Virus record (IMG/VR): IMGVR_UViG_3300045963_000043
Location: 1 to 40,781 of that record
DNA: 40,781 nt
Origin: a virus
Direction: 5' to 3' (one strand)
The translations under genes were made by a program, and so were the position numbers. Positions 8,674 to 40,781 of the stretch are shown here, in pieces; position 1 is the first letter of the stretch, and the number at the start of each line of letters is the position of its first letter. A model generated the notes under the pieces. The model worked only from the letters and a program-made list of their open reading frames with translations, did not search any database and was not told the origin of the DNA.

Positions 8674-11532
8674 TTAAGGTGCTTGATGTGGTAGTAGTCC
8701 TGAACCTGAACGGATAAGTGCCTGACACATTGCGCACGAACCGCGATATTGAGTATGCACTGGCGTAACTTGTGGCTCATAGGAAGTCGCATAAAATCTA
8801 CCAGCGTGTTCACCAAGTCTCTTAACGTATTGAGAAAACTTTATATCTCCATCACTTAGATTACGCACACTCTCAGGGTCGCGCTTGAGTTTCTCTAAAT
8901 TACCTATACCTCCCCATACTGCCATTACTAGGTCTTCGGGTTTGCTTACGAGTCTACCATTGTCAGTATGTTGTCTTAGGTACTTCTCTACATAAACCAT
9001 CTGCTCAGTGCGACTCATTCGCGCAAGCGCTTCTGTCGATGTCCCTAAACCAGCAGCAGTCTCAGGCATGAACTGGATAAGACCTCTAGCACCTCCATAA
9101 TCACCAGTGTTAGTTATACTGGTGCTGAATGTACCTCCAGTCTCAAACGCCATCAAATCAGCCAACCACTGAGTAGGTATTTTTAAACTCTGAGCTACGC
9201 GGTGCAATTCCTGTCTAAATGGTTTATCTTGCGCTATAGTTTGGTATCCGTAATTCTTGTCAGGTGATGAGGAGTACGCATTTTTGTCAGCAGGTAGCGG
9301 CATATTCTTAATAGGGTTGCGCGCAGTATAGGAGGGAGTACCTACCGTACCATCATCACGCACAATCTGGTTATTTTGAATGTAAGCACCACTTAATGGA
9401 ACTGCGTTAGGTGGTATTCCATTAGGAGTGTTAGCGCCACGTCGAGCATTAAGACCGCGGTTTGCGTTATTGAGATTTTTTATACTCCAAGCAATTGGGT
9501 CTTCAGTCTTTTCATACCCTCCATAAAGGTCACTTCTAACTTCAAAGTGTAGGTGCGCACCTGTGCTAGCACCAGTATTTCCTGTCAAACCTATGACTTG
9601 CCCAGGAAGTACCTGTTGACCTTCTTTAACACTCATACTGTTAAGGTGCGCATAACGTAGAATCTTACCGTCAGGAGTGCGTATGTCTATAAAATTCCCG
9701 TACCCATTATCTGACATCGCAGACGCGATTACACCACCTATAGGAGCTATTAAGGGAGTGTTTGCAGCTACAGCAATGTCAATTCCAGCGTGTGGTTTAC
9801 CACCTCTGTCTGGAGTCCTATCAGATGAGAACGTGACATCTGTACCTGATTTAAAAGGTAGTGGGAGCTTAACATCCCCAACCTGCAATTCAGCAAGTTG
9901 GGGCATATTAAAATTTTGATTAGTTCCTCTATTGATAGATGCGTTAGCGGCTTCTCTGTTAGAACGTAAATTTTGTAAAGTTGTAGTATAGGCACTCTCA
10001 AGAACTTGACGTTTTTGAGGGTCACGCATCAACTCTTCTACTTTAGTCCAAGGATTAGATGTATCACGTAAAAGTTGGTCTACTTGCTTAACACGCGCTT
10101 GTGTTGCTTCTAACACAACTTTGTTATACTTCTCAACATCTTGCTGTGCTTTCTGAACTTCCGCAGGTACTCCTCCTTGTAACGCTTTCTGCATGTTTTG
10201 GACTGCTTGTTGAAGGTCAGCGACAACACTTATATTAAGAGATACATTAGGCATTTGAAATGCTTGCTGTATCCAACCAAGCCTTTCCTTTGCATCACCT
10301 TTGCCAATACCAGCGATGACTGTTGCAAGTGAACCAGCTTCTTTAGCAAGCTCTTGTTTCTTGCCTTGGTCTACAAGGTAGCTTTTACCAGCGTTGCTGA
10401 TAGCCTCTAAAGCGGGAACACCCTCAAATTGTTTGTCTAACTGAGCGCGTTCAACGCCAGAAGAGTTTAAGTAACGTGCAGTTAATGCATCAGCCATACC
10501 AGACTGTAGTTGAAATGCTTTGTCAGACTGTAACTCATTACGTCTAACTGCTTGTTGCATTTCTTGATTTTGTTTGAAATCATCTACTTGACGCTGATGA
10601 ACTTTAGCCAAGTCAAGAATAGGCTCGTACGCCGACCGTACAGGAGGAGAAAGAGTAGCAAGCCGCGCCATATTGAGCGAAGCGATTTGTTCAGGAGGCA
10701 TACCCCTCGTCTGTTCAATAAACGCATTTGTGTCATTTATTTCACGGAGGGTGCTCATTAATTTTGCACCAACCTCACTACCTTGTGCAGAAGACTTACC
10801 AAGCACAGTTAGAAACGCGTTAGTTGCGTACAACTTCTCACTGTTGGAGAGTTTGCTATTAACAAGTGAGTCTGTAAACACCTTCGTAATATTGTCTACT
10901 TTTATCTGACGCTCTTTAATGTCTGGTACTAGTTGTAAGTCTGCTAACTGAGTATCTAAGTTAAGCACTTGAGTTTTGACAAAGACTTCAGTTTGTGAGT
11001 CTTTAACTTTATCAGCTTCTTTGCGTAAAGCTGTAACAGATGTTTCAAAGCTCTGTTGCACAGGGGAGTATAAACGAAGTAACTGTGTCTGCAACTGCTG
11101 TGCGTCTACGCTACCAGAGTAACGCTTCGCGAGAGCTTCAACTTGCGATTGATAACCTATACCACCTTGGTCAGTTTTGTTAATGATATCTGGCGCGTTA
11201 GCTGCGAGTTTGTTAGACTCTAAAATGAACTCTTTTTCAGCAGCAGCCGCTTCTGCTTTCTTCTGTGCTTCAGCATAACCTAACCCAACTTTAGCAAGTT
11301 CAGTGATACCACCAATGATACCACCACTGGTTTGCTGTTGTACAACTACTTTACGTCCGACCGCTTCAGCATCTGCATTAGCGGCGGTACTGTTAATTCT
11401 TTGTGATTCGGCAACAGACTGACGAATACTGTTGAAAGAATCATTGGCGATATTAGGCACATCAAGCAACTTTGCATCTTGAATCTGTGTGTTGATAGGC
11501 TGGACTTGAAAATCACTCCCTATATACTTCAT
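8674..11532 (-). CDS. Virion protein with M23 endopeptidase and lytic transglycosylase domains
   Basis: A 952-residue protein. Residues 1-540 are helical and Gln/Ala rich. An M23-type zinc endopeptidase domain follows, with HAGID (His near residue 581, the HxxxD ligand pair) and HLHFE (near residue 660, the HxH ligands). After a linker comes an SLT-type lytic transglycosylase domain with a candidate catalytic glutamate in AFETGGTF near residue 796, followed by GARGLIQFMPETAAGLG, the usual second motif. The enzyme would cut both peptide cross-links and glycan strands to open the cell wall for DNA entry. Its position among internal virion genes points to a particle-borne ejection enzyme, not a free endolysin. 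The start at 11532 overlaps the upstream gene by four bases. Confidence 0.9.
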   Translation of the reverse strand: MKYIGSDFQVQPINTQIQDAKLLDVPNIANDSFNSIRQSVAESQRINSTAANADAEAVGRKVVVQQQTSGGIIGGITELAKVGLGYAEAQKKAEAAAAEKEFILESNKLAANAPDIINKTDQGGIGYQSQVEALAKRYSGSVDAQQLQTQLLRLYSPVQQSFETSVTALRKEADKVKDSQTEVFVKTQVLNLDTQLADLQLVPDIKERQIKVDNITKVFTDSLVNSKLSNSEKLYATNAFLTVLGKSSAQGSEVGAKLMSTLREINDTNAFIEQTRGMPPEQIASLNMARLATLSPPVRSAYEPILDLAKVHQRQVDDFKQNQEMQQAVRRNELQSDKAFQLQSGMADALTARYLNSSGVERAQLDKQFEGVPALEAISNAGKSYLVDQGKKQELAKEAGSLATVIAGIGKGDAKERLGWIQQAFQMPNVSLNISVVADLQQAVQNMQKALQGGVPAEVQKAQQDVEKYNKVVLEATQARVKQVDQLLRDTSNPWTKVEELMRDPQKRQVLESAYTTTLQNLRSNREAANASINRGTNQNFNMPQLAELQVGDVKLPLPFKSGTDVTFSSDRTPDRGGKPHAGIDIAVAANTPLIAPIGGVIASAMSDNGYGNFIDIRTPDGKILRYAHLNSMSVKEGQQVLPGQVIGLTGNTGASTGAHLHFEVRSDLYGGYEKTEDPIAWSIKNLNNANRGLNARRGANTPNGIPPNAVPLSGAYIQNNQIVRDDGTVGTPSYTARNPIKNMPLPADKNAYSSSPDKNYGYQTIAQDKPFRQELHRVAQSLKIPTQWLADLMAFETGGTFSTSITNTGDYGGARGLIQFMPETAAGLGTSTEALARMSRTEQMVYVEKYLRQHTDNGRLVSKPEDLVMAVWGGIGNLEKLKRDPESVRNLSDGDIKFSQYVKRLGEHAGRFYATSYEPQVTPVHTQYRGSCAMCQALIRSGSGLLPHQAP

Positions 11533-12602: not shown

Positions 12603-13082
12603 TTAAGTACTCCCTGATAAGTATCTCTTACCTTTAAGCTTAGTCTCTATGTCAGCTTGTGTAAGTTTAAACGCGCCGTCGCTGTTGTTCCAAACGCTGA
12701 ACTGATAAGCGTATCCAATACCTTGCAGGAGTTCTTTGAACACCCAATACCCATCCTCGTCATCTTCAATGTGGTCAAATAGGCGTTCAGACGATAGTGA
12801 ATTGCCACTGTGTTGTAAATATAAGGTGACGTTAGCATCCATCTCTGACACAAACTTACCAACCAAATTGGCGTAATCTTGTGTCAATAGATTTACATCT
12901 GATGCAACATACCTTGTTCTGTCAGGTCTGTCTATAACAATGTAAACATGCTTAACACCCTTAATCCGTTGAAGGTATCCAACTTTCTGGTCTGCGTCTT
13001 CTGTACTGAGCGGAGATATATACCAACTAGGGTACGCATAACCAAATACAGAAATTGTGTTTGCGGAAGTAATTAGCGTCAT
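12603..13082 (-). CDS. Hypothetical virion-operon protein
   Basis: A 159-residue acidic protein located directly after the tail nozzle gene (four-base overlap) and before the gp14-like gene. It has alternating beta-like stretches (VKHVYIVIDRPDRTRYVAS, VTLYLQHSG) and a C-terminal helix, with no signal peptide and no family I recognise. The position suggests a minor tail or core component or an assembly factor. Nothing in the sequence decides between these. Confidence 0.6.
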   Translation of the reverse strand: MTLITSANTISVFGYAYPSWYISPLSTEDADQKVGYLQRIKGVKHVYIVIDRPDRTRYVASDVNLLTQDYANLVGKFVSEMDANVTLYLQHSGNSLSSERLFDHIEDDEDGYWVFKELLQGIGYAYQFSVWNNSDGAFKLTQADIETKLKGKRYLSGST

Positions 13083-16000
13083 GGTACAGCCACCACAATT
13101 ATGGTTGGTTTTAAAGGTACGGAATTAGCGTTGTACACAGTAGTTAGATGTGCTTCATTTTGCGCATTGAAGTTGATGGTTACTGTAACCACACCTTTAT
13201 ATAACCCGTTTGGTTGTAGTATACCTAGAGTAGTCCTGTCTGCTGGATTGCCATTAGTCAAGCTGTAAGTGAAGGGTATAACACCATCATTTATGAACCT
13301 AACAAATGCTCTATTAAATTCAATAGGGCTACTTGTACTCCACAGTTCTATATTTAAAGACCAAGACGTAAATGGTTTTCCTGTTGTGTCCGCTACAACT
13401 CGCAGTTCACTTATACGGAGTGTGGTGTCGTTGACTCTAGAGAAGCTGTTGAAGAATGTAAACCCGTCATTTTTAGAAATAGGTTCTACGTCAACAGGTA
13501 ACGTACCCAGAGAAACAAGGTCGGCGTAGCTAGTGTAATCTGCACCAGTAATACTGAACGTAGTTAAATCTGCGTAATTAACTTGCAGCAGAGCATAACA
13601 TACAGTAAACTTTTCTGTACACACGTTAGCAGGTTCAATTACACCAAGAGAGGTGTCGCTCAATGACATCTTAACGTTATCTTCGTAACCTACAACACCA
13701 TAAAAAGACTCATCTAGTACTGGACTGAAATACAGAGTGCCATTTACTGGCGAAACTACTTGGATAAATCCGTCATCTAGTTTAAACCAGTCTGTATTAT
13801 ACCTTAATGGTACAAGATTTAAACGTACAAGTAAGTCTTCTACAGTAGAATCGTTGATGAAGTAGACTGGACTCTTATATTTTGATACTCCCAAATATGA
13901 GGGTATATTCTTTAAACAAGGTTCAACAAGTACAGCAGAACCGCCAACGAATACTTTGGCGAAGTCTACAAATTTACTAAACTCTGTTTTGATAATTTGA
14001 AAGTCGCACAATGCCTTACAGCAGAAGACAGCAGCGTTAGCAGATGTTGTCATTGCTGTAATGTTCCAGCCAATAGACGCACCCCACTCACTCCACACTT
14101 TCGAGTCTGTGTAATACACAAATAGTCTGCCATCATATAAGAACAACTTCTTATTAAAGTTATCATATAACATAAGAGCAGCGCTAGTAAACTTCTTAAC
14201 TTCTGGTCTAATAGCTACAGATACCTCACTTGCTCTATACTCATTTTGGAGTATGATTGACATATCATATACCCCTCCATTAGATAGAAACATGAGAGTG
14301 CTTTCTGTTGCAACCACGCAATCTTTACTTAAACACCCTACATTGGCAGACAATAACAAAGAGTTGACATTGGCATTAAACTGACCGTTAGAGTCTAGTA
14401 TAGTCCTATAAGTTGCTGTGTTAGTAAACACAAATAAATATTGCTGCCATTGTTGGACAGCAGTCGTGTTGTCTGACCTATCTAGTGGTATACGCACCTT
14501 GAACGGGTCTAGCAACTGATTAGATAAATCATCTGTGATTTGAAAATATCTGTAAGGACTCCCTTTAATCAGCTTATCATAAACAGCGCTCACAACAAAA
14601 GGTGAACCGACACCGCATAGACACAATCTGTTCTGATACAGTGCGCCAAATACTGGAAATTCACCGTTTAGGTAGTCAGCGTAATCTCCTATACCGTAAG
14701 CGGGAACGTAACTTCCATTGTCAAAGTTGAATTTATTAGGCAGTGCCGCAGTTCCGCACCACTTCGTCTCTGTGTTTACGAGAGTCACCAATACATCTTT
14801 ATCAACACCAATCGGAGTTTTAGCAGAGAAGCTTACGAATTTCTGCATACCTGCGGTTAAGTCAGGTGTAGAAGACTCTGCTGAGTGGGTATAATACGCT
14901 AAAGCAGCAACTGAAGCTGTACCGAGAGTATTGCGCGTAGCCTCCACATCGTCTACAAGTACTTGCAAATTAACAGGTAGTACTCCAGTATCTCTATTAA
15001 AGCGCAATTGACGCAATCGTATAAGAGACACTGAATCGTACGCGACTCTTTCTACAGTGGTCGTTAAACCATCTGCAATCGCAGAATGAGTACCACCATC
15101 AACGTAGATAAAAAGATCGCCTAATGCTCCTGAGTAGTTTGGCACGATAGACGTCAGCGCAATGTCATAGAAAACTTGTATTGCGCTGGTAGTTAACACC
15201 TTGACGTAATATACAGTAGTACTGTTTACTGTCGCTGGTAAAGTACCATTATTTGTTTTAAACCTAATAGGGTCTCCGTCAAAAAGATTATGTTGAGATA
15301 TTGTTATATTCGTAGCGGTTATAGCTGCAACGTTAAAATACAACTCGACTCTGTTTACAAACACCACCTTCTTTCGCAAGTTTAAATCAAAGTACACTTC
15401 AAATGAGTTAACTGTCAGTGACTTGGCATAATAAGTGTTATTCTCACTCAAAGGTATTGGAAGAGTATCAGTAGAGGTGAACCTTATAGGCTGACCAGTA
15501 GCAAACCCATGTGCAGTTATAGCTAAAAATATACCCTTATAGTCGATTGCAACATCTGTAAATGCTTTTGTGTTACGTGCACTTAGAGTTATAATTGTAG
15601 TTAATGCAGCATCAGAATACAACTCAATTACATCGTCTGTTATACGCTTTACATAATAGTAGTTACCACTCACTGTTCCAATTGGTACTGCACCTTCTGT
15701 ATTCCTGAAAGATATAATGTCAAAACTTTTTAGCTTGTGCTTAAGTATTTTTATCTGGTTACCAGTGACGTCTCTATCAGTGAAAGTTCGCTCATTTACA
15801 TTCGTTATTTCACCAAATGTGATGTAGAACTTTGACGGACTTGTGAAAGCGGTTGTTGATGGTACATAATTAGAGCCATCAGAAAAAGAATACTCCAGAG
15901 AAATCTTTGGCTGGTTGTCACTTTTGTATGTGTACAGTTCATTAAACTTCTCTGAATAGTACGCGAATATACCATATCTTGTGTTACTCGGTATCTCATC

Positions 16001-16705
16001 CGCAGTGATGGATGTTGGCAATTGTATATGCCTATCTTCGTCAGATGCACCAAAGCGTGATACTCTCTGGTAGAATGAATCACCGTACCAAATTAGACTT
16101 TCCGCCCACCACTGCCAATTAAAAGTTATTAGGTATACTTTGGAATTTTCATTAAACGTCACACTTGTAAGCGTGACAGTGTCAACAGAAAAAGATTTTG
16201 ACACAGCAGTTTTTACACCATCGATGTAACACACCGCATCAACGTAAGAGTTCACCCACTCTTTTCCTACTTTCAGTATGAGAGATGTGACTGTAGTGGG
16301 TACACTAATCTCATACTCCAATATCCTCAGTTGAATAGGTGCGTGGCGCTTTGTCAAAAACAGGACAGTGTTATCTTCTAAAGCTACAGCGTGAGGTAAT
16401 AGAAACAAGTCTCTGAATACAGAAGTCTTGTTCCAAATCAATGTAGATTCGTCACCAACCAAATCTAATACGCGCAACTCAAAACCAGACTTGCAAGCAA
16501 AGAACTGTTTACCAAGCTGCGTAATGAAGGAGTCTAATGACACTGGATAAGCAGAAGCAGTGTCTTTAAATACTGTTACTGTACCTTTGCGCTTTTGTAC
16601 TGCGCCGCTTATGTCAAAGTCCACATTCAAAAGAGACGGTGAATCATCTACTGGTAATACAGTAGAACCACTCAGTAAGTTTAACCCACCAAACTTGTTT
16701 TTCAT
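13079..16705 (-). CDS. Tail tubular protein B / tail nozzle, extended (gp12-like)
   Basis: A 1208-residue protein directly downstream of the gp11-like gene. The N-terminus (FGGLNLLSGSTVLPVDDSPSLLNVDFDISGAVQKRKGT) is the typical opening of T7 gp12-like nozzle proteins, including the D-x-D-x-S-G-A-V-x-K-R-x-G pattern. The middle contains NQLLDPFKVRIPLDRSDNT and WQQYLFVFTNTATYRT, common in this family. It is clearly longer than T7 gp12 (about 800 residues). The extra length includes at least three tandem beta modules between residues about 320 and 530, each with the pattern D-x-I-x-F...LP...T-x-Y-Y-V/A-K...F/I-x-V-Y-x-D. These may be surface-exposed domains for host contact. Confidence 0.88.
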   Translation of the reverse strand: MKNKFGGLNLLSGSTVLPVDDSPSLLNVDFDISGAVQKRKGTVTVFKDTASAYPVSLDSFITQLGKQFFACKSGFELRVLDLVGDESTLIWNKTSVFRDLFLLPHAVALEDNTVLFLTKRHAPIQLRILEYEISVPTTVTSLILKVGKEWVNSYVDAVCYIDGVKTAVSKSFSVDTVTLTSVTFNENSKVYLITFNWQWWAESLIWYGDSFYQRVSRFGASDEDRHIQLPTSITADEIPSNTRYGIFAYYSEKFNELYTYKSDNQPKISLEYSFSDGSNYVPSTTAFTSPSKFYITFGEITNVNERTFTDRDVTGNQIKILKHKLKSFDIISFRNTEGAVPIGTVSGNYYYVKRITDDVIELYSDAALTTIITLSARNTKAFTDVAIDYKGIFLAITAHGFATGQPIRFTSTDTLPIPLSENNTYYAKSLTVNSFEVYFDLNLRKKVVFVNRVELYFNVAAITATNITISQHNLFDGDPIRFKTNNGTLPATVNSTTVYYVKVLTTSAIQVFYDIALTSIVPNYSGALGDLFIYVDGGTHSAIADGLTTTVERVAYDSVSLIRLRQLRFNRDTGVLPVNLQVLVDDVEATRNTLGTASVAALAYYTHSAESSTPDLTAGMQKFVSFSAKTPIGVDKDVLVTLVNTETKWCGTAALPNKFNFDNGSYVPAYGIGDYADYLNGEFPVFGALYQNRLCLCGVGSPFVVSAVYDKLIKGSPYRYFQITDDLSNQLLDPFKVRIPLDRSDNTTAVQQWQQYLFVFTNTATYRTILDSNGQFNANVNSLLLSANVGCLSKDCVVATESTLMFLSNGGVYDMSIILQNEYRASEVSVAIRPEVKKFTSAALMLYDNFNKKLFLYDGRLFVYYTDSKVWSEWGASIGWNITAMTTSANAAVFCCKALCDFQIIKTEFSKFVDFAKVFVGGSAVLVEPCLKNIPSYLGVSKYKSPVYFINDSTVEDLLVRLNLVPLRYNTDWFKLDDGFIQVVSPVNGTLYFSPVLDESFYGVVGYEDNVKMSLSDTSLGVIEPANVCTEKFTVCYALLQVNYADLTTFSITGADYTSYADLVSLGTLPVDVEPISKNDGFTFFNSFSRVNDTTLRISELRVVADTTGKPFTSWSLNIELWSTSSPIEFNRAFVRFINDGVIPFTYSLTNGNPADRTTLGILQPNGLYKGVVTVTINFNAQNEAHLTTVYNANSVPLKPTIIVVAVP

Positions 16706-26706: not shown

Positions 26707-26743
26707 CTCTTCATTGTGCCATTACTGCACGGGAAATATTATA

Positions 26744-27649
26744 ATGTCTGATACTAACAACGAATCAGTTATATCATTGTCTGAAACATTCGCAGGTCTT
26801 AAGCCTGAGATGGTATCACAGTTAGAAGAAGAGTGCGCTCTCATGAGTCAAGACTTTTCCAGTTATCAAGTTGACTTTAGTTCTGACTTGATGACTCTAG
26901 ACCAACTCATCCAAGCTATGGCTAACGTCGCTGATTTAGGTATGCAAGCTGATGTTAACGACAAAAAGGTACAAGCTATCCTGTTTGATGTTCATACTGG
27001 ATTTCTAACCACTGGTATATTTCAACAACCTGTCTACGTTGCATTGTTTGAAGGAATTTATTATGCAGTCAGTGGTCGTCATCGTATTAATGCAATGGCT
27101 AACCTCAAACAGTTTGGCTTGTCAGGTGATACCCTCATCAATGTAATCTTGTTTAAGCCTGACACAATGGGAGTGGCAATGTCACTGGTTTTGACTTCTA
27201 ATGGCTCTCGCTCTGTCAGCAAGGGTGAACACCAAGGCTTTAAGCTTGCCAAGTATGGTGTATTGCCTGATGCTAACGACTGCTTAAGAGCGGGGCGCGA
27301 CGGCACATTAAGCCAGTCTGATGCGTTTCTTAACGCTGCGTGGTTCAGCTACTCATCGCAAGACATTGGAGACAGAACGATTTCCACTGTGCAGAGCATT
27401 GCTAAAAGCTTTTATGCAGCGCTTAAAAAGATGCACTACTCCTTCCCTGAAATCTGCTCCTACCTTGATGACATGCTGTTTGCAATTGAAGACGCTGCTA
27501 GACTGACTGGTAGTACTAATGTAGCACGTTCTCAGGGTACAATTGCTGAAAATATCGTGACAGCGCTCGGTATTGAATTTCAAGAAGCACCTGCTAAAAA
27601 ACAGGCGAAAAAGAATGTTAACGCCACATTCTTCAAACGTTCACTTTAG
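26744..27649 (+). CDS. ParB-like protein 1
   Basis: A 301-residue protein; the ATG at 26744 is preferred to a GTG 30 bases earlier because the protein starts cleanly there. Residues about 80-120 have the layout of the ParB/Srx nuclease-type domain: a TGIFQQPVYVAL strand, then YAVSGRHRINAMA, matching ParB box II (G-x-R-R/H-x-x-A). Further on, NGSRSVSKGEHQGFKLAKYG (residues 153-172) resembles the following helix region. The C-terminus is basic and ends in NATFFKRSL. A paralog with the same order and the same FFKR ending lies at 27940-28998. ParB-like domains can bind DNA, hydrolyse CTP or cut nucleic acid; none of these is proven here. Confidence 0.65.
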   Translation: MSDTNNESVISLSETFAGLKPEMVSQLEEECALMSQDFSSYQVDFSSDLMTLDQLIQAMANVADLGMQADVNDKKVQAILFDVHTGFLTTGIFQQPVYVALFEGIYYAVSGRHRINAMANLKQFGLSGDTLINVILFKPDTMGVAMSLVLTSNGSRSVSKGEHQGFKLAKYGVLPDANDCLRAGRDGTLSQSDAFLNAAWFSYSSQDIGDRTISTVQSIAKSFYAALKKMHYSFPEICSYLDDMLFAIEDAARLTGSTNVARSQGTIAENIVTALGIEFQEAPAKKQAKKNVNATFFKRSL

Positions 27650-27819: not shown

Positions 27820-27873
27820 GTGAACTATCATCAAATTGATGTGAAGTACTTCCAAATTAAATTGTGCGCGATG

Positions 27874-27902
27874 TTGACACAAGTGCCACTTGGTGGTATA
27901 TT
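27874..27902 (+). promoter_or_regulatory. Strong promoter of ParB-like gene 2
   Basis: TTGACA (27874-27879), a 17-bp spacer and TATATT (27897-27902). Transcription would start near 27909, which rules out the GTG at 27820 and supports the ATG at 27940 as the gene start. Confidence 0.75.
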
Positions 27903-27939
27903 GGTTGCAGTGGAAAAAGTTACACACCACCAAACAGAT

Positions 27940-28998
27940 ATGGAACCCGAAGTTTACGCAGAAGAAACGTACGTGCAGTCATTGTTCACAGACGAACAGA
28001 ACTACGCTGAGTTACAGAACGGTTTAAGCAACAAAGCGAAACAATTGGTACAAAGCTATTCAGAATCTGAAGATGCTACACTATTTCGCGACAGTGTGAT
28101 TGAAGACGATGAAAATCACATGTTCTTGTACAACCGTCTACAGTCAGCTATCAGCCGTGAGTTCCGATTTGTATCTGTACGTGAATTGTATGAAGCAGTG
28201 GATAATTCGGATGCGTATGGTACGCAAGCTGAGTTCAACCCAACCAGCATCAGCAACATCTTGGCTGATGTACACATTGGAATTTTTGCCGTACAGCAAC
28301 TTCTAACACCTCCTCATTTAACTGAAAGGTTGAATATCAACACCAACCAACCTGAGTACGTTGGAGTCGGTTTACGTCATCGTGTCATCACGTTGACACT
28401 GCTTGCACATGTAAGTGGTATCGATGTGTATGCCGACGAGTGGCTCGACCAAAATGTTGAGTGTCTTGTATCGTCCAGTATTAATGCTGTAGGTGTGGAA
28501 GATACTGAACTGTCAGGCGCACTCGTTCTCGCTGATAACGCTTCGCGTAAGGCGTTTCAAGGTGAAAAGGCTTCATTCAAACTTAACGCCCTTGGTGTTG
28601 CATACGATGAACCTTCGCTTGTTAATGCAGCGTTTAGCGGACGTATTGCTGCATCAGAGGCATTTGGTACGGTACTCACCTTGTATTCCGATGAACTTGG
28701 ACGCAAGAGCACAACTCTCTTGTCTGTTGGTAAATCATTCTACGGACGTGCCAAGAAGTATCTGTCTTCCAAGCCAGCCTTCACAGGAGCAGTTCATTGG
28801 ATTGCAGATAACTTTGGGACTCTTGAAAGCAAGTTCATTGACTCCAATGACTCTGCTAACATTGCGCGTCAAGCCAGCAAGTTCTCGACTTTTGTGTTTG
28901 ACTCTTGGAAGATTGATAACAAGATTCAAGAACCTTTAAAGGCAACTCAAAAGAAAGCCAAGAAAGGCACGACTCCTTTCTTCAAGCGCGCTGCTTAA
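27940..28998 (+). CDS. ParB-like protein 2
   Basis: A 352-residue paralog of the preceding ParB-like protein. Shared blocks include a G-I-F strand, YVGVGLRHRVITLTLLA (R-H-R near residues 146-148), NASRKAFQGEKASFKLNALG (residues 200-219, matching residues 153-172 of the paralog), a SVGKSFYGRAKKYL helix (SIAKSFYAALKKM in the paralog) and the basic C-terminus ending in TPFFKRAA. The ATG at 27940 is chosen because a consensus promoter sits just upstream at 27874-27902. A longer GTG start at 27820 would lie before that promoter. A strong terminator follows. A DNA-binding or takeover role is inferred; sequence divergence between the copies is large. Confidence 0.65.
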   Translation: MEPEVYAEETYVQSLFTDEQNYAELQNGLSNKAKQLVQSYSESEDATLFRDSVIEDDENHMFLYNRLQSAISREFRFVSVRELYEAVDNSDAYGTQAEFNPTSISNILADVHIGIFAVQQLLTPPHLTERLNINTNQPEYVGVGLRHRVITLTLLAHVSGIDVYADEWLDQNVECLVSSSINAVGVEDTELSGALVLADNASRKAFQGEKASFKLNALGVAYDEPSLVNAAFSGRIAASEAFGTVLTLYSDELGRKSTTLLSVGKSFYGRAKKYLSSKPAFTGAVHWIADNFGTLESKFIDSNDSANIARQASKFSTFVFDSWKIDNKIQEPLKATQKKAKKGTTPFFKRAA

Positions 28999-35943: not shown

Positions 35944-36681
35944 ATGACAGAACAACAACCAACAAACCATCTAGTGATTGACGCTGTTACGTTTGAAAAT
36001 AATTACAAAATTGACGTCACCAATTTTGTGAAGATGTACCCTAAAGGTAATTTGGAATACATACCTTGGTCAGCGGGGTTGATGCTAATGAAGCAGTACC
36101 ATTTTACATTCATCTTCGAGATTGAGATGTTTGACGGTAAGCCTGTTCTATACTTACCAGATGGTACAGCATTTGTCAGCGTTATTATCGTTGATACTGC
36201 AACTGGTGCGCGTTCTACACCTTCTCACTATCCTGTGATGAAGGGCTTCAACCACGGTGCAGAGGTTGACCCCGACTGTCGCGCGATTAACGACTGCATC
36301 CAGCGCGCCAAAGTCAAAGCGCTTGCAGAAGTCACAGGTATCGGTCTTAAGCTTTGGTTGCGTCTTGAAGAAGACGAAATCAACGGAGACACCCCTGTTG
36401 TATCAGCACGTGAAACTAAAGCACCACCAGCACGACGCGCTGCTACTACTGCACGTCGTCAACCTGCTATAGTTGAAGAAGATGACGAAGAGCCTGAGGA
36501 TGGTAATGATGAGGAGTATGCCGAAGGTGACGACGAAGTTTTTGAAACTGAGTCGCGTCAGCCGCTAGCTCGTCGCACATCTCCAGCGCGTCAACCTGCT
36601 GCCGCACAATCTCGCCGCCCAGCCGCACAGTCTCGCGGTGCTCGTCCTGCTACAAGCAGAGGAGCTAACCCTTTTGGCTAA
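35944..36681 (+). CDS. Single-strand annealing protein (Sak3/DUF1071-type)
   Basis: A 245-residue protein. Residues about 15-145 match the DUF1071 (Sak3) layout: NLEYIPWSAGLMLMKQYHF, a strand FVSVIIVDTATGARSTPSHY, P-V-M-K-G-F-N-H, then a RAINDCIQRAKVKALAEVTG helix with I-G-L-K-L-W. These proteins are Rad52-like and anneal complementary single strands during phage recombination. The remainder is odd: an acidic block (residues about 180-205) then an Arg/Pro/Ala/Gln-rich tail with RQPA and RRPAAQSRG repeats. T7's SSB-like gp2.5 also ends in an acid tail, so a merged SSB/annealing role is possible. No SD sequence precedes ATG 35944. Confidence 0.75.
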   Translation: MTEQQPTNHLVIDAVTFENNYKIDVTNFVKMYPKGNLEYIPWSAGLMLMKQYHFTFIFEIEMFDGKPVLYLPDGTAFVSVIIVDTATGARSTPSHYPVMKGFNHGAEVDPDCRAINDCIQRAKVKALAEVTGIGLKLWLRLEEDEINGDTPVVSARETKAPPARRAATTARRQPAIVEEDDEEPEDGNDEEYAEGDDEVFETESRQPLARRTSPARQPAAAQSRRPAAQSRGARPATSRGANPFG

Positions 36682-36970: not shown

Positions 36971-37055
36971 TTTATTGATGGGTATGAGCCAAGACCCGCG
37001 TACTTGTGCTGACCCACGCTCACAATATCCATCAAACCCACCTTGTAATAAATAA
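36927..37055 (+). CDS. Hidden 42-residue ORF with signal-peptide-like start
   Basis: GTG 36927 opens a 42-codon frame ending at TAA 37053-37055, whose last base is the first base of the next gene's ATG (TAATG). AGG lies about eight bases before the GTG. The peptide starts MKTKNLSVALALVVSLLMG, a charged start followed by a hydrophobic core of about 14 residues, then a short polar stretch with two cysteines and prolines (DPRTCADPRSQYPSNPPC). This looks like an exported small protein or membrane peptide. It overlaps the upstream gene by 44 bases, and without it the 84-base gap to the nuclease gene would be empty. Family unknown. Confidence 0.5.
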   Translation: MKTKNLSVALALVVSLLMGMSQDPRTCADPRSQYPSNPPCNK

Positions 37056-37867
37056 TGCACTTTAAGAGACTTACCGAATACTGGAATGACGAGAGTGGTG
37101 TATACCCTACTGATGCTACCACTGTTGCTAAAGTAGTTGCGTTCTTTGCCAAGTCACTATCATCAGCCGTGTCTGATGTACTGTTCCGAAACAAAGACAA
37201 CCACTATCTTCGCGTTTCACAAATGGGTAAGCCTCTTATTGTACTCTGTTTAAACAAGATTGGGTACGAAGACCAAGACGAACCCAACTTCAAGATGCGC
37301 TGGATATTCCTTTTAGGTCACGTATTTGAGGCATACCTCATGTGTGTGATACACCTCCTAGGGTACGATATACACTCCGCGCAGGATGAGATTGACTTTG
37401 GCGGCGTACTTGGTCACATCGATTTCATGGTTGATGAAGTCGTTGTTGAAGTAAAAACGATGTCAGATAGGTACTTTACTGATTTTTGCCGCAAGCAGAA
37501 TGATGACCGTGGCTATCTGACACAACTGCACTGTTACTGTGCGGCAAAGAAAACGAAACGCGGTGTTTTTCTTGTCATCAATAAATCAACCAACGAACTG
37601 CGCGAGATACCACTCATATGGGATGACCGTTACATTACCCGCGCTCGTTCTGTTATTCAACATTACGATGCATGTACTGACATAGATTACATCATTGACA
37701 ATTTAAACGCTCCAGAGGGTGTTCCCGAAAAGAGAGGTCACACCCTAACTGGTAAATTTCTTGTACCTCCAAACATGAGATATTCTAAATTCAAAGATGC
37801 TTTCTATGAGTGTAACGGTCAATATCTCGTGACATATAAACCTAATTGGTATAGGAGTTTTGAATGA
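37055..37867 (+). CDS. RecB-like PD-(D/E)XK nuclease
   Basis: A 270-residue nuclease of the Cas4/RecB exonuclease superfamily. Visible motifs are GHVFEAYL (His89, Glu92), GHIDFMVDEVVVEVKTMS (D123, E132, K134, the catalytic D...E-x-K) and TQLHCYC (Q157 to Y161, the QxxxY motif). An exonuclease of this type next to a single-strand annealing protein is the usual phage recombination pair: the nuclease produces single strands that the partner anneals. Starts as TAATG with the previous small ORF and overlaps the AAA+ gene by four bases. Confidence 0.85.
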   Translation: MHFKRLTEYWNDESGVYPTDATTVAKVVAFFAKSLSSAVSDVLFRNKDNHYLRVSQMGKPLIVLCLNKIGYEDQDEPNFKMRWIFLLGHVFEAYLMCVIHLLGYDIHSAQDEIDFGGVLGHIDFMVDEVVVEVKTMSDRYFTDFCRKQNDDRGYLTQLHCYCAAKKTKRGVFLVINKSTNELREIPLIWDDRYITRARSVIQHYDACTDIDYIIDNLNAPEGVPEKRGHTLTGKFLVPPNMRYSKFKDAFYECNGQYLVTYKPNWYRSFE

Positions 37868-39432
37868 AGACAACAAAGAAGAGAGGTTGGATGGACGACG
37901 ATGAATATTTACAACGACTAGCTGACAGACTTAAAGCCAATGTATACAGACAAGAAAAACTCGCCGCTTTACAACGACTAGCTGACAGATTTATACCAGT
38001 TATCGATACCCCTCCTATGGCAACAACTAAAATTGAGGTGATTACTAGTGATGATTCTGGTAAAATAGTCTCCGACGCATACCGCGCTGCTGCTTTTGAA
38101 CAGTTTAATGTTGAAACTAACTTCGGTACTAAAATCACCACATCTCAGACAGATTACAGAACTAGAAAAAACGGTGTTACTTACCACTTCCGCAAAGACC
38201 CTATCAATGGAGATTGGTATCTATTTGTGGATGGTATAAAGTATACACGGAACAGAACGTTGAACCTTCCACACTTTGAAGACGCTCTAACTATTGCAGT
38301 TGCTGCCGTACATTCAAACGTTTCTGTCGTACATTCAAACTTTGTGAAACAGTACAGCATAGATGTGCACGTTGGTGACATTACGTTTCAATTTATAATG
38401 CCTACGAAATTCAATGAAGTATCATGTTTTGTGCTCATCAACTGCGACGTAATACCACTTCCTGAAATAGAGTTGACGCAGAAGGATTACGGTGATATCC
38501 TTTATATAGAGCTAAAAAATAAGCTCAAGATTTTTTGGGAATCTTGCGGTTTGACTTTCTACGCACCTCCTAACCAACCTATCCAAATCCTCAACCCTGT
38601 CGTGATTAAAACAACCAAAGACTATAACATGTCTAACTACAGATTACGCAACGCAGACAAACTCCTTATCGAAGTTCTCGATAGTGGTAACACTAATGTT
38701 GCACTCCTCCTTGGAAAACCGGGAACTGGCAAGACTTTCTTCACAGACTGTTACTCTAAGTGGGTTGGTGCTGAGTACATGTACGCACTTTGTCACGACG
38801 GCACTAACGCTGAAGACCTTTTCTACAGCGTCAATGTCGGTAAAGCGGTATTGCGCGAAGGTAAAGTCAGCGAAGAAATCTACCAAGCTGGACTACTTTT
38901 ACGTGCTGTTCGCGCATCGCAGAAACACAAAGTCGTGTTATGTGTCGACGAGATTGACAAAGCCAGCAAGCGAACTGAGAATCTATTCTTAGACTTTGCT
39001 GAAACCTATCGCGTCCCTTTCCTTGAAACTCAAGAAGTTGGTGTAAAAGAAAACATCACGCTTTTCTTTACGAGCAATGGTTATCGCCCACACAGCGAAG
39101 CGTTTTTGCGTCGTTGCTACCGCCACCACTTCGACTTCCTTCCACGCGACGTTGAGATTTCTCTCATTGGTGGTACTTATGCTGAGAAGATTGTAGACGC
39201 GCTTGCAGCTATTCGCAAAGATGGTGCATCTTCTCCGTCTATCAAGGAGGGTATGCTGTTTGCTCATAACCTTCAGTTTGCCAATACAAAGGCGGATGTC
39301 GAACTTCTGTTCTTTGCACACCTATGCAAAGAAGAAGAAGATTTTGAAGTGTTAAGGAAGGGTAACTTTGCCGACAAGTTTGTTAAACCTAGGTATCAAA
39401 AAATTGATGGTTACATCAAGGAGCCGTTCTAA
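37864..39432 (+). CDS. MoxR-like AAA+ ATPase
   Basis: A 522-residue protein. Residues about 1-240 are an unrecognised N-terminal region that contains a 20-residue tandem repeat (LQRLADR twice, encoded by an exact 22-bp repeat at 37908 and 37968). The C-terminal half is an AAA+ module of the MoxR/CobS type: Walker A LLGKPGTGKT, Walker B VVLCVDEIDK, a sensor FFTSNGYRP and RRCYRHHFDF. MoxR ATPases usually act with a VWA-domain protein to insert metals, remodel proteins or drive defence systems. A candidate VWA partner is encoded directly after it (one-base overlap). Cyanophages are known to carry CobS-like genes, but full identity is not shown. Confidence 0.85.
   Translation: MKTTKKRGWMDDDEYLQRLADRLKANVYRQEKLAALQRLADRFIPVIDTPPMATTKIEVITSDDSGKIVSDAYRAAAFEQFNVETNFGTKITTSQTDYRTRKNGVTYHFRKDPINGDWYLFVDGIKYTRNRTLNLPHFEDALTIAVAAVHSNVSVVHSNFVKQYSIDVHVGDITFQFIMPTKFNEVSCFVLINCDVIPLPEIELTQKDYGDILYIELKNKLKIFWESCGLTFYAPPNQPIQILNPVVIKTTKDYNMSNYRLRNADKLLIEVLDSGNTNVALLLGKPGTGKTFFTDCYSKWVGAEYMYALCHDGTNAEDLFYSVNVGKAVLREGKVSEEIYQAGLLLRAVRASQKHKVVLCVDEIDKASKRTENLFLDFAETYRVPFLETQEVGVKENITLFFTSNGYRPHSEAFLRRCYRHHFDFLPRDVEISLIGGTYAEKIVDALAAIRKDGASSPSIKEGMLFAHNLQFANTKADVELLFFAHLCKEEEDFEVLRKGNFADKFVKPRYQKIDGYIKEPF
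37908..37989 (+). repeat. In-frame 60-bp tandem duplication in the AAA+ gene
   Basis: ACAACGACTAGCTGACAGA and its flanking TTT occur at 37908-37929 and again at 37968-37989, exactly 60 bases (20 codons) apart. The first part of each unit reads LQRLADR. The identical DNA shows recent duplication or repeat-driven expansion. Confidence 0.85.
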
Positions 39433-40619
39433 TGAAATACTTTTACTCGAAACTAGATTTGTTTGGCAGCAGTTGGGTGGAGTGTAGCCAGCCAGATTGG
39501 TGGTTTTGTAAGCACGACGGCATACCTACGCGCCAACTTGCTGATGACGAAGAGCTACTAGAAGCTATAGAAGAAGAATTGTCTGATACCCCACTAAAGG
39601 ATGCGCTTCTAGATAAACTGCGCGACTCTGCTCCAGCAATTGTCAGCATACTTGCTGACGAACTCATTGAAGAAGAAGACTTACAAGTAACTCCAGAGGA
39701 GGTGCAGTATTACGTTGACGAAGAACTTATCAACCCTGACTATGACGAGCTTGAGTTTGAAGACGGAGAAGCTGTTACTTCTGATGGTGTTCTAGGCTCA
39801 CCTGTTGCTAACTCTTCTACAAACATTAACAAGTGGTTTCCTAATGCTGCCATTACAACTACTGTTAGTGGAAAAGCTAGCACCGATGACGTAAAGAAAA
39901 TCACGCAAGCAATATACACCCTCATGGAGGGAGGTATGCAGTATGAAAGTGATGAGTTAGATGGTGGCAAATTCATCAAACGTTTAGAAACTTCGCGTAA
40001 TGTAACCACGCAAGTTAACAAGAGTACGCGCGCAAATCCTTCTATACTATTCTTGCCTGACTTTTCACCGTCTTGTAGCAGCTACGCACAACTTTACAAC
40101 ACCCTCCTAAGTGGTGTTAGTACTATTCGCGACGACTTCAACGTCATTAGCGCACCGCACTATAACGGACTACCTAATTGGTTTGTCATTAATGGTAAGA
40201 AGTCTACCAAACAAATGGTAATGTTTGAGAATGACTACATAAGAGAAGACAGCGATGGTGATTTTTGTAGTAACACACGTGCTGATAACAACTCTGTCGC
40301 GCAAGATTTCTACTTTAAGCAAATTGCTAAAGTTGTGTTAGATAACAACGTCACAACTGTAGTCATTGCCGCCGACATGGATGGTACTTGGTTGTTCAAG
40401 CTATTACTGCTTTATGAACAAGTCGAGCGCGTCATTTGGGTTGATGGTTCATACTGGGATTCAGAAGGTGAAATCACTGACAAAACGGCAGAGTTGTGCT
40501 ATCGTCTGTTCACGAAAAACGCCGAGCGCCAAATCGCCAAAAGTAAGCTGTCTTACTGGAGTGGCGTGAAGACTGTAAAAGAATTTGTACGTGTATTTGA
40601 AAGGAGCAACTCATGGTAA
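39432..40619 (+). CDS. Probable VWA-domain partner of the AAA+ ATPase
   Basis: A 395-residue protein. The first 120 residues are very acidic, with many Glu/Asp pairs. Residues 205-216 read ILFLPDFSPSCS; D210-x-S212-x-S214 is the MIDAS-type DxSxS metal motif of von Willebrand factor A domains after a hydrophobic strand. A later strand VVIAADMDGTW (D315/D317) fits the distal acidic position. The fold is divergent. Acidic N-terminal halves and C-terminal VWA domains are typical of CobT-like partners of MoxR/CobS ATPases. It overlaps the AAA+ gene by one base and the following ORF by seven bases. Confidence 0.6.
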   Translation: MKYFYSKLDLFGSSWVECSQPDWWFCKHDGIPTRQLADDEELLEAIEEELSDTPLKDALLDKLRDSAPAIVSILADELIEEEDLQVTPEEVQYYVDEELINPDYDELEFEDGEAVTSDGVLGSPVANSSTNINKWFPNAAITTTVSGKASTDDVKKITQAIYTLMEGGMQYESDELDGGKFIKRLETSRNVTTQVNKSTRANPSILFLPDFSPSCSSYAQLYNTLLSGVSTIRDDFNVISAPHYNGLPNWFVINGKKSTKQMVMFENDYIREDSDGDFCSNTRADNNSVAQDFYFKQIAKVVLDNNVTTVVIAADMDGTWLFKLLLLYEQVERVIWVDGSYWDSEGEITDKTAELCYRLFTKNAERQIAKSKLSYWSGVKTVKEFVRVFERSNSW

Positions 40620-40781
40620 TGCAACATTGGAAGATTTTCAATTTCGGAGAAAAGGAACTACCCCATGATTTTATTTTCGACAGTTACGAATACGCTAGAC
40701 TTGGACGTATCGAGCTATACAAAGAAGGGTATAGTAACCTGTACATTGATGAACTGTCCGACACGGTAAAAGACTTGGCGA
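40613..40781 (+). CDS. ORF spanning the genome junction (N-terminal part)
   Basis: Starts at ATG 40613 in the last codons of the VWA gene, with AAGGAG (40601-40606) seven bases upstream. It runs off the right end and continues at base 139 of the window to TGA 144-146, giving 58 residues (VMQHWKIFNFGEKELPHDF at the start, ending in SDTVKDLAKH). The DUF3310 start overlaps its stop. It contains many Tyr, Asp and Glu and no known motif. Reading it requires the four-C version of the repeat. Confidence 0.6.
   Translation, partial: MVMQHWKIFNFGEKELPHDFIFDSYEYARLGRIELYKEGYSNLYIDELSDTVKDLA
40645..40781. repeat. Right copy of terminal overlap
   Basis: Same as bases 1-138 with one C less in the run at 40661-40664. 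In this copy the ORF from 40613 stays open, so this copy is probably the correct one. Confidence 0.97.

Follow-up and report, generated by a model that had tools for sequence, protein, structure and literature searches.

A MoxR-type AAA+ ATPase gene paired with the gene for a probable, divergent VWA adaptor among the replication genes of a podovirus-like phage

In the present work, we analyzed a 40,781-nucleotide stretch of viral DNA (IMG/VR record IMGVR_UViG_3300045963_000043, positions 1 to 40,781; referred to here as the window) and found that two adjacent genes near its 3′ end form one unit. These genes very probably encode a single machine, in which an AAA+ ATPase of the MoxR type, akin to NorQ and CoxD, is combined with a VWA adaptor akin to CoxE. 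The elements of this machine that the analysis shows are the ATPase motifs, a relationship of the adaptor to VWA proteins (traced through intermediates), and the strict pairing of the two genes. Taken as a whole, a MoxR-type remodeler that works with a CoxE-like adaptor and is encoded among the replication genes is the explanation that we favor on balance.

The two reading frames lie exactly where the first-pass annotation had placed them, at positions 37864 to 39432 (522 amino acids) and 39432 to 40619 (395 amino acids), and they meet in a TAATG junction at which the stop codon of the ATPase gene overlaps the start of the adaptor gene by one base. Searches of IMG/VR contigs with the ATPase found five close relatives (56 to 76% identity), and an alignment-based search then reached distant relatives in larger contigs and later L039 and L041; the adaptor, searched against viral contigs, recovered its own close relatives. 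Consistent with the MoxR/VWA-type pairing proposed at first pass, the partner gene lies directly downstream in all 18 distinct ATPase-found contigs that continue for 1 kb or more past the ATPase gene (L001 to L005, L013 to L021, L023, L024, L039, and L041), which come to 15 distinct pairs when identical and nearly identical sequences are collapsed and the window is counted. The contigs L022 and L040 are uninformative in this regard, since they end inside the next ORF or after the ATPase. Frequent occurrence of the ATPase without its partner had been named as an outcome that would speak against the pairing; no such case was seen in the ATPase family. Purifying selection acts on both genes, with NG86 dN/dS values of 0.09 to 0.23. 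Outside the pair, the other neighbors change, and because no further gene is common to the four clades over the stretches compared, the pair looks like a self-contained cassette. A set of about 50,000 named phage records contained no tblastn match to the pair proteins of the window, L015, L025, or L041. The L025 pair was dropped as a family member, as its partner (PHROG 33218) does not align, and L042 carries an AAA gene beside an ORF with a canonical VWA motif, but its ATPase match is only weak.

The ATPase gene (37864 to 39432; this and all features below are on the plus strand) has a strong match to Pfam AAA_5 (E value, 4.5e-16; 59.5 bits against a curated cutoff of 22). Its AAA+ core, as delimited by the Pfam match and alignment, spans positions 38629 to 39363 and is preceded by an N-terminal extension of about 250 amino acids (37864 to 38613), which is restricted to the ATPases of the window clade and is variable in sequence; the distant relatives begin at the AAA core (alignment A4). 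The clear Walker motifs noted at first pass are intact. Walker A reads GKPGTGKT (residues 284 to 291; 38713 to 38736), with G-PGTGKT invariant over 13 relatives and GAPGCGKT in the distant relative L041, while in Walker B, VVLCVDE (residues 357 to 363; 38932 to 38952), the VV and DE are invariant. Also intact in conserved alignment columns are the putative sensor-1 motif TSN (39070 to 39078; T403 and N405 invariant) and the invariant pair RR (residues 416 and 417; 39109 to 39114), a candidate arginine finger, both roles being assigned by analogy with the AAA+ fold. A profile built from 13 ATPase sequences matched NorQ over the entire core (E value, 2.4e-6; profile positions 186 to 378 on chain positions 25 to 213), and one built from six sequences gave an E value of 0.22. 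Many Clp/Hsp104 and p97 chains score close to NorQ against the ATPase profile, and the MoxR assignment therefore rests jointly on the NorQ coverage, the AAA_5 match, and the VWA partner. The bacterial homologues found for the ATPase were remote AAA proteins only.

The adaptor (39432 to 40619) was identified as the partner of the ATPase by adjacency in the family contigs and as a probable VWA-domain protein by a profile link to VWA_CoxE. Its N terminus is acidic, as had been remarked at first pass, with 31 D+E against 3 K+R over residues 38 to 120 (39543 to 39791). This segment is followed by a VWA-like C-terminal domain with preceding helices (residues 146 to 395; 39867 to 40616), as delimited by an AlphaFold2 model and viral structural matches. 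Within the domain, the segment LFLPDFSPS falls on a predicted strand and ends in the DxSxS motif that had drawn attention to the protein; this motif, DFSPS (40059 to 40073), corresponds to MIDAS motif 1, and all 14 aligned sequences retain D210, S212, S214, and C215. An NG after strand 2 (40164 to 40169) is invariant in the alignment, and a DMD (40374 to 40382; GDxDG in relatives), in which D315 is invariant and D317 nearly so, aligns with the SDG of CoxE and is probably MIDAS motif 3. For MIDAS motif 2, neither the 14-sequence alignment nor the CoxE profile alignment contains a conserved threonine in the adaptor family. Segments common to the partners of the window clade and the distant clade are LPDxSPSC, NG, GDxD, and R-x-(I/V)W.

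The VWA nature of the adaptor had been inferred at first pass, and it is now backed by a profile link to VWA_CoxE through intermediates. The window adaptor gave no significant match in Pfam (including the curated VWA model), PHROG, PADLOC, or PDB sequences. Compared by hhalign, window-clade and distant-clade partners are clearly related (E value, 3e-13), and the family profile picks up the partners in L039 and L041 (E values, 5e-36 and 2e-11), each located beside its own ATPase. These two proteins carry DVSGSC and DLSGSC, respectively, that is, the canonical DxSGS motif of VWA domains, after a long acidic and Ser/Gly-rich N terminus, and the L039 partner has a weak Pfam VWA_CoxE match on its DVSGSC segment (E value, 0.013, below the cutoff). 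Set against eight bacterial VWA proteins of the CoxE type, the adaptor family profile reached scores of 49 to 54 at probabilities of 89 to 93% (49.1 at 89%); the highest score among 100 column shuffles was 19.5, and a P-loop control profile scored 13. Most of this signal comes from the intermediates L039 and L041 (score, 52); the window and distant clades together scored 31.9 (shuffles, 17.4), and the window clade alone scored 22.3, below its shuffled maximum of 22.95. Because the window clade by itself fails to beat the shuffles, the link between the adaptor and VWA proteins is a chain of homology through intermediates.

Structural prediction pointed in the same direction. A model of the full-length adaptor with six close relatives was unusable (pLDDT, 47), and the C-terminal domain was modeled instead with 14 divergent sequences (pLDDT, 77.7; pTM, 0.78). 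In the resulting core, strands alternate with helices, and the first strand terminates in the DxSxS motif; a fold without a Rossmann-like VWA core, the other outcome named in advance as contrary, did not turn up in the model, whose alternating alpha/beta arrangement is consistent with VWA. Foldseek comparison with viral models showed enrichment of VWFA/CobT-like proteins among the best matches, each of them weak (E values of about 1e-3 to 1e-1), including the VWA protein of phage P74-26 and a CobT-like protein of a Gordonia phage. Against the PDB, nothing was significant, and alpha/beta hydrolases ranked above VWA domains. These models and matches support a VWA fold without proving it. One could argue from the missing motif 2 threonine, and from the insignificant and mixed PDB matches, that the domain adopts a different fold of the Rossmann-like class, such as that of a DxD metal-binding domain, its DxSxS being coincidental. 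We regard this as improbable in light of the canonical DxSGS in the intermediates, the profile match to CoxE, the enrichment of VWA proteins among viral structural matches, and the location of the gene next to that of a MoxR-type ATPase. Most likely, then, the C-terminal domain is a divergent VWA domain, linked to its kin via intermediates.

How might such a pair work? In NorQ-NorD, the ATPase is a hexamer, the VWA domain is docked on the ring with a finger in the pore, the MIDAS motif is needed for an active client, and ATP hydrolysis remodels the adaptor linker (PMC13036017, PMC9976466). By analogy, the phage ATPase may form a hexameric ring on which the VWA domain would sit in direct contact, the adaptor may bind its client protein through a metal held by the DxSxS and DxD residues, and the energy of ATP hydrolysis would then serve to pull or twist the client through the adaptor and so remodel it. 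Judged by sequence, the pair appears to have the parts for a mechanism of this kind, apart from the nonconserved motif 2 threonine.

The genomic setting bears on what the client might be. As described at first pass, the pair follows recombination genes, namely, those for a Sak-type single-strand annealing protein (35944 to 36681; Pfam SSAP_Sak E value, 2e-10) and a Cas4-like exonuclease (37055 to 37867; PHROG 1990 E value, 1e-23), the latter lying immediately upstream, in the same order in L001 to L005, and overlapping the start of the ATPase gene by 4 bases. It also precedes a DUF3310 gene, as had been claimed; this gene is split by the record ends (match at 164 to 334; E value, 4e-19), and in L001 the corresponding ORF is directly downstream of the partner. 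The pair is part of a replication/recombination operon on the plus strand, and the structural cluster is on the minus strand. The label "T7-like" proved loose: a podovirus would account for the head-tail genes and the family A DNA polymerase, but a search for a T7-type RNA polymerase gave no match, with the control genomes silent too, and none of the unassigned plus-strand ORFs has the length needed to encode one. To our knowledge, a MoxR/VWA pair is not in the standard T7 gene set, and the remark to that effect in the first-pass annotation seems fair. Yet pairs of this kind are already on record for viruses, namely, p618/p892 of Acidianus two-tailed virus (ATV) (PMC4124505) and, among tailed viruses, those of the group 2.2 jumbo phages (PMC7824862), CobST (PMC8651126), and Hardycor1 (PMC7911831).

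Since the pair is located in the replication operon, overlapping the exonuclease gene and outside the structural cluster, and since it occurs in unrelated phages without its neighbors, we favor as client a complex of host proteins, or one of general DNA metabolism, that would be remodeled early in infection. We offer this identification tentatively, and the early expression that it implies is suggested by gene order alone. Across the clades, no conserved neighbor names the client. The same machine might instead chaperone virion or tail proteins made by the phage itself, a role that was concluded for ATV, where virion proteins are bound by p618, whose ATPase activity p892 increases (PMC4124505), and that was proposed for the group 2.2 jumbo phages (PMC7824862); the ATV protein ORF892 is also weakly present in the viral Foldseek list. 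However, the genes are situated away from the minus-strand structural cluster and keep no conserved neighbor across clades, and we consider a virion client a serious but somewhat unlikely alternative.

The location of an isolated two-gene cassette on the replication side of unrelated phages could also befit a counterdefense or host takeover factor that dismantles a host complex, and bacterial conflict systems do use MoxR-VWA modules (PMC7159879). Against this, PADLOC returned no match for either window protein, and the pair is found in all relatives of the phage group that were recovered rather than in a patchy subset, which makes such a role rather improbable. Less probable still, and by a good deal, is a chelatase motor of the CobS/CobT type with which the phage would raise the supply of cobalamin or another metallocofactor, in line with the metal chelation role suggested at first pass. 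CobST pairs are reported to occur widely among tailed viruses (PMC8651126), the structural matches include a CobT-like protein from a Gordonia phage, and the ATPase weakly matches the CobS-like PHROG 249 (porphyrin biosynthesis; E value, 6e-5). Other AAA PHROGs outscore PHROG 249, however, and cobalamin chelation is disfavored because CobN and the ribonucleotide reductase large subunit, both detected in controls, are absent from the record, although CobN could be host encoded.

A more far-reaching proposal, which we think unlikely but worth stating alongside the preferred remodeler of a host or DNA metabolism complex, is that the pair belongs to a virus-only MoxR/VWA lineage in which the adaptor has lost MIDAS motif 2 and changed its client site (DxSPSC, the NG loop, and DxD) and in which the clade-specific N-terminal domain of the ATPase recruits a phage DNA replication or recombination client. 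The term "virus-only" refers to one scan, of finite collections, in which no bacterial homologue of the adaptor was found. If true, the targets of this MoxR motor would be complexes of DNA metabolism, in place of metalloenzymes or virions.

Comparison with known pairs places the system within a familiar kind. It shares with NorQ/NorD and CoxD/CoxE the two-gene layout and an AAA_5/MoxR core that matches that of NorQ throughout, and the adaptor family aligns by profile with CoxE-type proteins over a stretch that takes in the DxSxS, SDG, and R-x-IWL segments. Unlike NorD and CoxE, the window adaptor falls below every library threshold, has DxSPSC in place of DxSGSM, and has no conserved motif 2 threonine, and unlike NorQ and CoxD, the ATPase bears the 250-amino-acid N-terminal extension and is not encoded in a metalloenzyme operon. 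As in gp24/gp25 of phage N4 and in the MoxR/vWA genes of jumbo phages (PMC7824862; a likeness in arrangement), a phage AAA+ ATPase adjoins a VWA-like protein. N4 gp25, however, is a DUF2201 protein, metallopeptidase-like and VWA-like, and the window adaptor is without DUF2201 domains; no kinship with gp24/gp25 was detected, there being no profile match. Thermus phage P74-26 likewise encodes an adjacent AAA ATPase and VWA protein (gp49/gp48), and the latter is among the structural matches, but it has a canonical DESGSM, its genome also encodes a ribonucleoside-triphosphate reductase, and again no profile match was found. The CobS/CobT pairs of tailed viruses (PMC8651126) share the AAA+ and VWA combination but differ in that the window ATPase is only weakly CobS-like by PHROG and the record has neither CobN nor the reductase. 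ATV p618/p892 is, like the pair described here, a viral MoxR/VWA set, in that case a chaperone (PMC4124505), but it belongs to an archaeal virus, and the structural similarity of p892 to the adaptor is weak (rank 37). Because it cannot be aligned with the N4 and P74-26 pairs, the pair described here appears to be a new, previously unrecognized branch of the known MoxR/VWA kind. A profile of the adaptor family would let annotators recognize a protein that current libraries miss, and a compact pair that is conserved both among related phages of about 40 kb and in unrelated larger viruses, without other conserved neighbors, offers a minimal system in which to find the client of such a machine.

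About 138 bases are common to both ends of the record (1-138 and 40645-40781); a single base differs, within a run of C residues, and the remainder is identical. Because its ends overlap in this way, the record is probably a complete genome, either circular or terminally redundant. The DUF3310 gene is interrupted by the record ends.

On the minus strand, where the structural genes lie, the 952-aa protein encoded at 8674-11532 carries a metallo-endopeptidase (endolysin-like) domain at residues ca. 575 to 690 and is probably a virion lysin. On the same strand, a tail protein that elsewhere constitutes one PHROG family (21185) is spanned in the window by two ORFs (12603-16705). These ORFs, at 13079-16705 and 12603-13082, overlap by 4 bases, which we read as either gene splitting or a frameshift. 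The plus-strand cluster includes, close to its beginning, two ORFs (26714-27649, 311 aa, and 27820-28998, 392 aa; both plus strand) that had no PHROG matches and no Pfam matches over the cutoff.

With regard to other VWA proteins, the VWA_CoxE-like proteins of two bacterial genomes (L061 and L062) have GDASMSPYE in the motif 1 position, a further case of an altered MIDAS. In a viral contig (L042:7992-10306), a remote AAA ATPase ORF is followed by an ORF with the canonical DGSGSM, and the two apparently form a separate MoxR/VWA-type pair in their own right.
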